64,000 nt of DNA from Desulfosporosinus acididurans (GTDB lineage: Bacteria; Bacillota; Desulfitobacteriia; Desulfitobacteriales; Desulfitobacteriaceae), in NCBI RefSeq assembly GCF_001029285.1, contig NZ_LDZY01000009.1, positions 62,001 to 126,000 on the forward strand. Direction: 5' to 3'. Positions 44,261 to 48,207 of this stretch are shown here, piece after piece. The notes beneath the pieces were generated by a model. It saw only the letters and a list, made by a program, of their open reading frames with translations, did no database searches and had not been told where the DNA came from. Position numbers and translations under genes: made by a program. Position 1 is the first letter of the stretch. Each line of letters opens with the position of its first letter.

Positions 44261-44544
44261 TAAAATGCCTCCTAAGTTTAAATCTATAATTACAATAACA
44301 CACTTAAAAGACATTTCGCTGTTTATCTCGTATATTTGTGATTTCAACACCTTCGCATTCCAGGTTTCGTCCATTCACTTATGCGGGAGTTCCGCAAAAC
44401 CTCTGAGAAATACCTCAAGTCTACCGCCGGTCATGGACGATCAAGTGTCTCTGTAGCTTTCAAACAAATCGAAAATCATGGTTTGACCGAGCTCAAAGAG
44501 TTGACTTTCGATTTCGAGCGTGTTAAGTTTTAAAAAAGCATATA

Positions 44545-44640
44545 GAGCGGGGGAGCTGGAAAGGCCGGCTGAGATTTAGACCCTGGAAAGTCTAGGACCC
44601 TATAAACCTGATCTGGATAATGCCAGCGTAGGTAAGCAGT
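44545..44640 (+). promoter_or_regulatory. TPP riboswitch (THI box)
   Basis: The aptamer core is plain: GGCTGAGAT, ACCCT at the turn, then AACCTGATCTGGATAATGCC and GCGTAGG. Binding thiamine pyrophosphate would favour the terminator at 44663-44700, repressing thiD. Confidence 0.95.
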
Positions 44641-44662
44641 TACTCTTACGGTTTAAATAATT

Positions 44663-45838: not shown

Positions 45839-46576
45839 ATGCTGCAAGGAAAAATAGCTTTAATTACTGGCGGTGGTACGGGAATCGGGAGAGCAATCGC
45901 CCTGATTCTTGCTAAAGCTGGTGTCCAGATTGCCGTTAATTATTCCCGTTCGGAAGATGACGCCTTAACGACAAAGGCCGAGGTCGAAAGTTTGGGAGTT
46001 CGTTGTCTAACTTACCGGGCCGATATCGCAAAGGATGAAGACGTCAGATTAATGATCAGGAAGGTTGTTAACGACTTTGGGAAATTAGACATTCTTGTGA
46101 ATAATGCCGGTATGACTCACTTTGTAGATCATGCTGATTTAGAAGGTTTAAAAGAAGAATATTGGGACGACATTATGGGAGTAAATGTTAAAGGAACGTT
46201 CTTCTGCTCCCGTGCTGCCGCCCCGGAACTTAAGAAAACTCGGGGATGTATCGTCAACATGGCATCCATTGCCGGCCTGACGGGATTAGGCAGCTCTATT
46301 GCTTATTCAGCCTCCAAGGCTGCCGTTGTCAGCATTAATAAATCTTTAGCTCGCGTTCTAGCGCCTGAGGTTAGGGTCAATGCTGTAGCTCCGGGAATTG
46401 TGCAGACGCGTTGGGTAGCAGGTAAGGATGAACATATCGCCCATCTTGCAGCCGGTACTCCCCTCGGACGGGTGGCTACCCCGGATGATATCGCCGAAGT
46501 TGTTTACGCACTTATTGCCCATGCCGGCTTTGTAACTGGGCAAACGATTGTTGTGGACGGCGGAAATTTCATCTAA
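45839..46576 (+). CDS. short-chain dehydrogenase/reductase (FabG-like)
   Basis: 245 residues, classical SDR. NAD(P) motif TGGGTGIG (about residues 10-17), NNAG (about 89-92), catalytic Ser in MASIAG, Tyr and Lys in YSASK (about 157-161). GAGGAGG ribosome site and its own promoter. It could reduce a ketoacyl, sugar or steroid-like substrate; it is not in a fatty-acid cluster, so no symbol is given. Confidence 0.92.
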   Translation: MLQGKIALITGGGTGIGRAIALILAKAGVQIAVNYSRSEDDALTTKAEVESLGVRCLTYRADIAKDEDVRLMIRKVVNDFGKLDILVNNAGMTHFVDHADLEGLKEEYWDDIMGVNVKGTFFCSRAAAPELKKTRGCIVNMASIAGLTGLGSSIAYSASKAAVVSINKSLARVLAPEVRVNAVAPGIVQTRWVAGKDEHIAHLAAGTPLGRVATPDDIAEVVYALIAHAGFVTGQTIVVDGGNFI

Positions 46577-46604
46577 ATCATACAACTCTGGTATAATAAG
46601 GCAC

Positions 46605-46790
46605 TTGACAAGAATTAAAATATGATTATAATTAAATTATAGTCAATGAATAAAAAAGATTCAGTTTAGTTCTTGTTAGGGCATGCTAGGTAAAGTTTCG
46701 ATTCTTCGGAGGTTTTCAGCATTGCGGTTTTAATGGGTGCTGAATTCGTTGAATTGATAACTACCTAGTAAGAAGGTAGTTTTTTCTTTT
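46605..46790 (+). ncRNA. candidate structured RNA 1 with own promoter and terminator
   Basis: Promoter TTGACA (46605-46610), 16-bp spacer, TATAAT (46627-46632): a near-consensus pair with no gene behind it. Within the transcript CTAGGTA (46686-46692) can pair with TACCTAG (46762-46768) and TTCAGCA (46715-46721) with TGCTGAA (46738-46744). A terminator AACTACC/GGTAGTT (46759-46781) plus TTTTTT uses part of the same TACC, so two folds compete, as in a switch. No known class is recognised. Confidence 0.55.
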
Positions 46791-47073
46791 AAGAAAGCTT
46801 TCCCGCAAAGTTCCTCCCCGTAACTCTGTTGTCGTTAGTCCCATAAAATTTCTTTGGTAATCAGTAAGTCATTGATTCTGCTGGGAAATTAGGTCGAGAT
46901 TTCAGAGGATTGTTTCCGAAACACATTTTATCAGAAGTAGTGGAGGATTTGTCGAGATTAGTTTGCTAACCTAACTTGATTTGGTTCATATTTCTTTTAG
47001 TGAGTATGTTGAAAATTAATCCAGAGCCGTTTATCCATTAATTCTGGGGGGACTTTGCGGGATATATCAGTTA

Positions 47074-47107
47074 AAAGAAAGGCCACTAATTTGGTGGCCT
47101 TTTCTAC
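47074..47107 (+). terminator. intrinsic terminator in the SDR-deoD spacer
   Basis: AAAGGCCAC pairs with GTGGCCTTTT across TAATTTG. The 280 bp ahead of it contain no gene, though CCAGA/TCTGG (about 47021-47044) could form a stem; what transcript it ends is unclear. Confidence 0.8.
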
Positions 47108-47211
47108 GTTTGCACCACGCAGTGGCGTAAATGCAGAGGGTTAAAACCCCTCCAGGGCCTTTACCTAAAACTTACCACGAAGCAAACCAATACAAATCCC
47201 TGTGAATATTG

Positions 47212-47415
47212 TATAATAAGGCGGAAGGACATATGTCCTTAAGTCTTTTTCATGTATATCCTCTTTGTCCCTCCGGGACAGCATAATCGGAGGGAACCTT
47301 TTTCTTCTTTCCTAGTACGGTTAGGAACGTACTGCCTATAGTTTCTTAGAGGATAAATGAAGAAAATTTTTGGATTAGATTTTAGAAATAAGCCCGCCTT
47401 TTGGTGGGCTTATTT
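47212..47415 (+). ncRNA. candidate structured RNA 2 upstream of deoD
   Basis: After a TATAAT (47212-47217) comes about 190 nt with strong pairing and no coding frame: the palindrome AAGGACATATGTCCTT (47225-47240); a long closing stem around TATCCTCT (47257) and AGAGGATA (47348), extendable to about 18 pairs; inside it two hairpins, CCCTCC/GGAGGG (47269, 47289) and AGTACG/CGTACT (47314, 47328), giving a three-way junction; then a perfect terminator AAATAAGCCCGCC (47386-47415). deoD starts 79 bp later. It does not match the purine riboswitch consensus. A 6S-like or new RNA is possible. Confidence 0.6.
47386..47415 (+). terminator. intrinsic terminator of candidate RNA 2
   Basis: AAATAAGCCCGCC pairs with GGTGGGCTTATTT across TTTT. 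Confidence 0.88.
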
Positions 47416-47493
47416 CATTAAAGTGGACAGATTATCATCGAATAGGATAAAATAGGATTGATCAAAATTGTTTAATTTAGGAAGGTGACGTTT

Positions 47494-48207
47494 ATGAGTA
47501 TACATATTGGCGCTAAAGAAGGCGAGATTGCAAGGACCGTTCTTTTACCCGGCGATCCTTTGAGAGCAAAGTTCATAGCAGAGACCTTTCTTCAGGATGT
47601 TGTTTGTTATAATGAAGTAAGAGGCATGTTCGGATTTACAGGTACTTATCAAGGAAAACGAGTTTCTGTTCAAGGAACAGGAATGGGAATGCCTTCAATC
47701 TCAATTTATGTCAATGAACTAATTACAGAGTTTAAAGTTCAGAATTTAATTCGCATCGGTACTTGTGGTGCTATGCAGGAGGATATTCATCTTAAGGATG
47801 TCATTCTGGCAATGAGTACCTCAACTGATTCCAACATGAACAAACTTAGATTCAACAATATGGATTATGCTCCAACCGCTAATTTTTCCTTACTCATGAA
47901 AGCCTATAATAATGCTCAGAAATTGGGGGTCCCTGTTCGTGTCGGCAATATATTAAGCACGGATACCTTTTATGGGGATGAACCTGATGATTGGAAGCAC
48001 TGGGCTAAGTTTGGAGTTTTGGCAGTGGAAATGGAAGCGGCTGCCCTCTATACTTTAGCTGCCAAATTTAACGTCAGGGCACTTGGGATAATGACTGTCA
48101 GCGATAGCTTTATAACGCATGAAATTACAACCTCCGAAGAGCGACAAAAAACATTCCGCAATATGATTGAAATAGCCTTAGAAACAGCATTAGAATTAGA
48201 AGATTAA
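47494..48207 (+). CDS. deoD: purine-nucleoside phosphorylase, DeoD type
   Basis: 237 residues from ATG 47494 (AGGAAGG 8 bp upstream; an in-frame GTG at 47485 overlaps the site). Splits purine nucleosides with phosphate. [13 protein letters not shown] start, [17 protein letters not shown] (phosphate loop), RIGTCGA, and the C-terminal [12 protein letters not shown] and TVSDSF motifs mark the hexameric DeoD branch; the catalytic Asp is in VSDS. Possibly regulated by the candidate RNA in front. Confidence 0.96.

Follow-up and report, generated by a model that had tools for sequence, protein, structure and literature searches.

The window examined here (the whole stretch of Desulfosporosinus acididurans DNA that was analysed, 64,000 nucleotides) contains a strongly structured region ahead of a deoD-like gene, which raises the question of whether this region is a leader of that gene or a gene in its own right. 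Folding of positions 47219-47417 gave −77 kcal/mol versus −47.8 ± 4.1 kcal/mol for dinucleotide shuffles (z, −7.2; 0/200). The fold has a palindromic hairpin on its 5' side, a long closing stem that joins about 47246-47266 to 47346-47366, hairpins inside this stem, and an intrinsic terminator at 47389-47412. A sequence-only reading of this DNA had described a three-way-junction RNA ahead of deoD and had suggested two readings, a ligand-sensing leader of a new kind and an independent RNA, for instance one of the 6S type. The fold is present in the window copy, but the conserved unit ends about 115 nt earlier, at the first of two intrinsic terminators (T1).

Anatomy and distribution of the conserved element

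A DNA search of the genus gave matches in 16 of 29 genomes. In all genomes but that of the nearest relative (G008), good matches stop near query position 115, which corresponds to 47304 (aligned part, 47190/47205-47304), and a few weak matches fall in other parts of the query; the element therefore divides into the first 100 nt, which are conserved, and a 3' part that is local. The conserved unit is a small RNA (sRNA) gene of ∼85 nt at about 47219-47303 (plus strand), and its anatomy as computed here is given in Table 1. The promoter has a −10 box without a recognisable −35 box. Folded alone, the 85-nt RNA forms two hairpins with a fully open middle. The unpaired stretch between the 5' hairpin and the terminator reads AGUCUUUUUCAUGUAUAUCCUCUUUG. 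In the unpaired seed, one part (AGUCUUUUUCAUG, 47242-47254) is anti-start plus first codons and another (UCCUCUUUG, 47259-47267) is anti-Shine-Dalgarno. The three-way junction arises only if the transcript passes T1, and the form of the window RNA that ends at the second terminator (T2) would be ∼195 nt long. The gap from T2 to the deoD ATG (47494) is 81 bp, and deoD has a candidate promoter of its own (TGGACA-18-TAAAAT, 47424-47453). A strict T2 lies within 190 nt 3' of T1 in 15/31 copies.

TABLE 1 Predicted features of the sRNA locus, in window positions
Feature	Coordinates	Strand	Basis or remark
Tandem box TTACCT-N5-TTACCA	47161-47177	+	Proposed activator site; TTACCA at 47172-47177, 34 bp 5' of the −10 box
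−10 box TATAAT of the sRNA	47212-47217	+	TATAAT or a one-mismatch form here in 31/31 copies
5' hairpin AAGGAC-AUAU-GUCCUU (helix 1)	47225-47240	+	Covariation and fold
Unpaired seed	47242-47267	+	Open in the fold of the 85-nt RNA
First intrinsic terminator T1, UCCCUCCG / CGGAGGGA	47268-47303	+	Helix 2 covariation; U-tract at 47299-47303
3' extension, segment AGAGGATAAATGAAGAAAA	47348-47366	+	Like Shine-Dalgarno, AUG, and Lys-Lys; pairs with the seed; only in deoD-locus copies
Second intrinsic terminator T2	47389-47418	+	End of the read-through form
deoD-like gene, purine nucleoside phosphorylase family	47494-48207	+	Pfam PF01048, 6e-45; neighbour, outside the element

The window's genome (G000) holds one clear second copy of the element. 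Two covariance models were built, R1 from 15 copies and R2 from 31 copies, and in the genus models R1 and R2 gave matches in 25/29 genomes at E ≤ 0.1 and 28/29 genomes at E ≤ 0.05 (matches at S-layer genes included). Over 82 genomes of the class, R1 matched 19, of which 18 belong to the genus; the remaining one is G035. The sRNA locus of G035, a genome of another genus, is nearly identical to one in G021 (L150 and L146, respectively), so that contamination is possible, a mis-binned contig being likely. An exact 23-mer pattern of the element had no match in a collection of genome contigs, and a gapped exact pattern derived from type 1, the copies that resemble that of the window, found five stretches there, all in Desulfosporosinus records. 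Within the genomes tested, the family is nearly restricted to the genus Desulfosporosinus. A phage origin was rejected, as phage records and viral contigs contained no match.

In a typical copy, the −10 box and the 5' hairpin precede an open pyrimidine-rich segment that contains CUUUUUCAUG, after which come a hairpin and a U-run; CUUUUUCAUG was invariant across the first 23 copies. Besides type 1, we distinguish type 2, whose 5' hairpin is short and overlaps the seed (e.g., L046, L049, and L149), and type 3, whose terminator is of the GATCTCC or GGACCTCC type (e.g., L145 and L148, which lie near genes that we take to resemble those for PII and an ammonium transporter). Diverged copies carry other stem sequences at the position of T1, each followed by a U-run or T-run, and the last hairpin is therefore a terminator and not a fixed sequence. 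As a separate observation, the type-2 loci L146, L149, L300, L303, and L306 share a conserved CATTGCGCARAAGA-like stretch 3' of T1 and before a second terminator.

Both hairpins covary. Over the 31 copies, 93.2% of cells are paired and 12/14 pairs show two-sided changes (helix 1, 5/6 pairs with 87.1% of cells paired; helix 2, 7/8 pairs with 97.2%). The covariation score of 0.345 compares with ≤0.174 for slid controls and was reached by 0/500 shuffles, in an alignment fitted to the tested hairpin structure, which favours the score. The closing stem of the three-way junction does not covary in the homologues; it is found in the window copy and its G008 and G009 orthologues and is not a family-wide trait. 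The copies are dispersed and their neighbour genes vary, with a deoD-like gene downstream at 4/31 loci (G000, G008, G025, and G009); in G009, a 585-amino-acid open reading frame (ORF), presumably a transposase, lies in between. Because the neighbours of the copies differ, a cis role at deoD is unlikely. The idea of an independent RNA is supported by its own promoter, its own terminator, the dispersed copies, and the scarcity of deoD among the downstream genes.

None of the Rfam 15 families matches the element at the gathering score, which leaves it without a match to any known RNA class at that threshold. At E values up to 10 (46560-47500), only sub-threshold matches appeared, the best-scoring of them being terminator-like hairpins against leader families, and neither a purine riboswitch nor 6S was among them. 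The sequence-only reading had remarked that the purine aptamer core is absent. The element probably encodes a real RNA, and neither a deoD riboswitch nor a 6S RNA is supported.

Two further RNA elements were observed in the neighbourhood. Positions 46603-47107 hold a structured noncoding element of ∼470 to 500 nt. Its promoter is a perfect TTGACA-16-TATAAT (46605-46632), a hairpin plus T-run lies in its interior, CCCGCAAAG...CTTTGCGGG form a long closing stem, and a terminator stands at its end. The element has homologues in 29/29 genus genomes, often several in each, some with middles enlarged by GTTAGTTAGTCAG-like repeats; it has no Rfam match and is possibly a new large RNA class. It was rejected as a part of the sRNA, having its own promoter and occurring in all 29 genus genomes without being tied to the sRNA. 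A TPP riboswitch (Rfam match) lies at 44539-44652, 5' of a thiamine-type gene.

Complementarity of the seed to S-layer gene starts

Taken as its reverse complement, the open segment spells out a Shine-Dalgarno sequence, an AUG, and codons for Lys-Lys, and the seed complement resembles GAGAGGAG...CATGAAAAAGACT of S-layer mRNAs. The target genes were found through a pattern search with GAGGA-N-CATGAAAAAG together with weak R1 matches antisense to a signal-peptide gene. They belong to the CWB2 family (Pfam PF04122), which we read as S-layer genes, and include one on contig C15 of the window's genome with the start region GAGAGGAGAAACATTACGCATGAAAAAGACT. By computed complementarity, the seed is antisense to the Shine-Dalgarno sequence, the AUG, and the first codons of these mRNAs. 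Among the matches listed, 63 S-layer-like starts whose N terminus was covered were picked by hand.

Among 347 start regions of the window's genome, the 27-nt seed pairs best with that of the S-layer gene G000:C15:96621 (−26.4 kcal/mol), and other S-layer starts come 9th and 130th; this rank test is not independent, the S-layer link having first been noticed via complementarity. The second sRNA of this genome ranks the C15 gene 2nd. A longer query that includes the terminator arm is less specific, with 8/127 background starts pairing as well as the S-layer gene. The route of discovery is circular as a statistic, and more independent tests were therefore sought.

Model R2, which was trained on the 31 sRNA copies only and without S-layer DNA, gave 72 matches over the 29 genomes at E ≤ 0.05. 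Twenty-two of these lie exactly opposite S-layer start codons, a class that makes up about 2e-5 of the positions searched. The remaining 50 consist of the 31 copies of the alignment (A4), 14 sRNA-gene-like matches, and 5 doubtful ones (L109, L110, L304, L305, and L307), and no other recurrent class appeared among the R2 matches in these genomes. Pairing of sRNAs with the S-layer starts of their own genome averaged −19.63 versus −17.81 when genome labels were permuted (P = 0.0004; 25 sRNAs in 15 genomes, with relatedness of the genomes uncontrolled); for type-2 sRNAs alone, P was 0.23. In G016, the sRNA is complementary to the S-layer start of its own genome over ACTACATGAAGAAAACTAAAA, and antisense matches reach 21 nt in some copies.

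The S-layer genes vary at the synonymous lysine codons 2 and 3, and computed allele matching links this variation to the sRNAs. Among the 21 genomes in which sRNA and S-layer starts are both represented, an anti-AAG-AAA sRNA (UUUCUUCAUG) occurs in 10/10 genomes with an ATG-AAG-AAA S-layer gene and in 0/11 others (table 10/0/0/11; chance by arithmetic, 1/352716). Mapping the AAG label onto an atpD tree of 25 genomes requires five changes, at least three of them forced by supported branches, and shared ancestry alone is therefore a poor explanation. Gain and loss of the type-3 sRNA contribute to the association, and co-inheritance may explain part of it. G021 carries two sRNAs of different types, both with the anti-AAG-AAA allele; the AAA-AAA S-layer gene of G012 occurs together with a UUUUUUUCAUG sRNA; and G025 combines an AAA-AAA S-layer gene with a similar anti-AAA-AAA copy that has one change in the anti-start. 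AAA-AAA and AAA-AAG are both represented in the S-layer and sRNA sets of G012, and similarly in G003 and G025. Alleles of the sRNA and the S-layer genes of its own genome mismatch in G001 and G019 and for L049 in G026. Seed and target change together across species, with G001 and G019 as exceptions.

No close S-layer gene was found in G020 and G023, though type-1 copies are present there. G028 has a CWB2 gene of the S-layer family (L308; start, ATGAAAAAAGCT); it was left out of the 21-genome table and is not counted among the genomes without an S-layer gene.

A cis-encoded antisense RNA was rejected, the best targets in the window's genome lying on contigs C15 and C3 and the sRNA on C9. The gene has its own promoter and terminator, no conserved host operon, and a conserved open seed complementary to a start region encoded elsewhere, as a trans-acting sRNA would have.

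As a side observation, S-layer genes share a conserved leader of >200 nt upstream of their starts, seen at L182, L184, L185, L186, and L237 (GGAGGGACG..., TTAGATAYTGCGCAATGTCTAAAG, and AAGGRGGTGAGRGRCG) that has no convincing Rfam match. Its TTGCGCAATGTC hairpin resembles the CATTGCGCARAAGA-like stretch of the type-2 loci.

Promoter box, proposed mechanism, and alternatives

Upstream of the −10 box, 26/31 copies have TTACC[AG] and 2 more have TACCA (28/31 in total); of the 3 copies without the box, one is cut by the edge of its stretch. The spacing between box and −10 is 23 to 25 bp in 6 copies, 34 or 35 bp in 18, and 44 or 45 bp in 4, so that the classes differ by steps of one helical turn, and many copies have a second TTACC ∼11 bp further upstream, as the window does. 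From this arrangement we propose that the TTACCA box is a phased activator site; the activator is possibly an OmpR-like response regulator.

The element is probably the gene of a trans-acting, base-pairing sRNA that belongs to a multicopy Desulfosporosinus family and blocks S-layer translation. For transcription, the activator, repression as the direction of the effect, and the read-through form, we infer the following course. The sRNA would be transcribed from its own promoter, probably with an activator at the TTACCA box, and its transcript would end at T1, at about 47303. Its seed would pair with the Shine-Dalgarno sequence, the start codon, and codons 2 to 4 of CWB2-type S-layer mRNAs, and the duplex over the start region would block ribosome entry and lower S-layer synthesis. 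A duplex over the Shine-Dalgarno sequence and start codon normally blocks initiation. An Hfq gene is encoded.

In the copies at deoD loci, RNA that reads through T1 may fold a target-mimicking 3' segment onto the seed and thereby become inactive. In 4/31 copies, ≤6/200 shuffles equalled the pairing between the seed and the 110 nt that follow downstream (the window, 3; L124, 2; L149, 4; L139, 6), and for pairing with the 3' extension, shuffles were as good in 3/200 cases for the window, 2/200 for G009, and 17/200 for G008. The AGAGGATAAATGAAGAAAA segment is kept in G009 although the adjoining sequence has diverged. We propose from these three genomes that the 3' extension would keep the read-through RNA inactive.

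The window copy by itself could also be taken for a purine- or nucleoside-sensing cis riboswitch or leader that controls deoD through T2. It sits 81 bp 5' of a purine nucleoside phosphorylase gene, as a purine riboswitch might, ends in a terminator, and can form a three-way junction. We regard this as very improbable: only 4/31 loci have the deoD-like gene, in G009 behind the 585-amino-acid ORF, most copies lack the closing stem of the junction, no purine aptamer was matched, and the conserved promoter and terminator enclose an RNA whose 3' end falls short of the closing strand of the junction. The ligand-sensing deoD leader of the sequence-only reading is not upheld by a family that shares neither a downstream gene nor a junction core and whose covarying parts are two simple hairpins around an antisense segment, unlike a purine riboswitch. 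A 6S-type or other housekeeping RNA that does not act by base pairing is scarcely credible. The ∼195-nt T2 form, which has the length of 6S RNA, and the long closing stem of the window copy suit it, but the main form is an 85-nt RNA with two conserved hairpins around an open middle, no 6S match was obtained, and the family is multicopy and, as far as tested, nearly confined to one genus.

Two other explanations accept the complementarity and interpret it differently. If the copies were decayed inverted duplicates of S-layer gene starts, complementarity would reflect their origin and not a function, which would suit both the antisense stretches of up to 21 nt (G016) and the position of copy G014:C149 next to an S-layer gene. 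Such decay is improbable given that the promoter, the phased TTACCA box, and both covarying hairpins keep their positions, that the anti-start decamer is invariant in the first 23 copies whereas the reverse-strand reading frame is not, and that the alleles track the S-layer genes of their hosts across at least three supported switches. The sRNA might instead activate or stabilise S-layer mRNAs, or an S-layer mRNA might be a sponge, with other genes being regulated; S-layer mRNAs are presumably abundant, and in Clostridioides difficile, SpoX activates cwpV (PMC10267692). We think this unlikely, as the predicted duplex covers the Shine-Dalgarno sequence and start codon, which normally blocks initiation, and R2 yielded no other recurrent class of matches.

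Relation to known sRNAs and implications

Sibling sRNAs of Bacillota, for example RsaE-like RNAs, occur in several copies per genome and have an open, C-rich anti-Shine-Dalgarno segment between hairpins and an intrinsic terminator. The Desulfosporosinus seed differs in that it also spans the AUG and the codons for lysine in a single gene family, and the element has no Rfam match. The products of cwp2 and cwpV of C. difficile are of the CWB2 type. The C. difficile sRNAs SpoY and SpoX are described as trans-acting, Hfq-associated RNAs that pair with cell-wall protein mRNAs, SpoY repressing cwp2 and SpoX activating cwpV, with spo0A as the main target studied (PMC10267692). Such regulation is therefore already known in the class, and the likeness lies in base-pairing sRNAs that act on cell-wall protein mRNAs in Clostridia (PMC10267692). 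The family described here is a dispersed multicopy one, antisense to the starts of S-layer paralogues, and differs from SpoY and SpoX in its targets. In the open-licence literature on S-layer sRNAs, on noncoding RNAs of Desulfosporosinus and Desulfitobacterium, and on CWB2, we found no paper on this RNA. The sRNA family is new, the kind of regulation is already known, and the predicted target is unusually well supported.

In cells that make them, S-layer proteins presumably rank with the most abundant proteins; to our knowledge, the tuning of their synthesis is poorly understood, and Desulfosporosinus is a sulfate-reducing genus for which we know of few genetic studies. As genomes hold several S-layer paralogues together with sRNAs that have corresponding seeds, we tentatively consider, as a conceivable but rather unlikely extension, that the family might be a posttranscriptional selector of the cell coat, in which the choice of the displayed S-layer protein would depend on the sRNAs that are switched on via the phased TTACCA box and the deoD-locus copies would add an off form through the target mimic of their read-through transcript. 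The locus illustrates that what looks like the leader of a metabolic gene can be a trans-acting gene unrelated to it. If the proposed role holds true, a dedicated multicopy sRNA family that tracks the codons of its targets would offer, with its precisely predicted pairing, a direct handle on the tuning of the S-layer.
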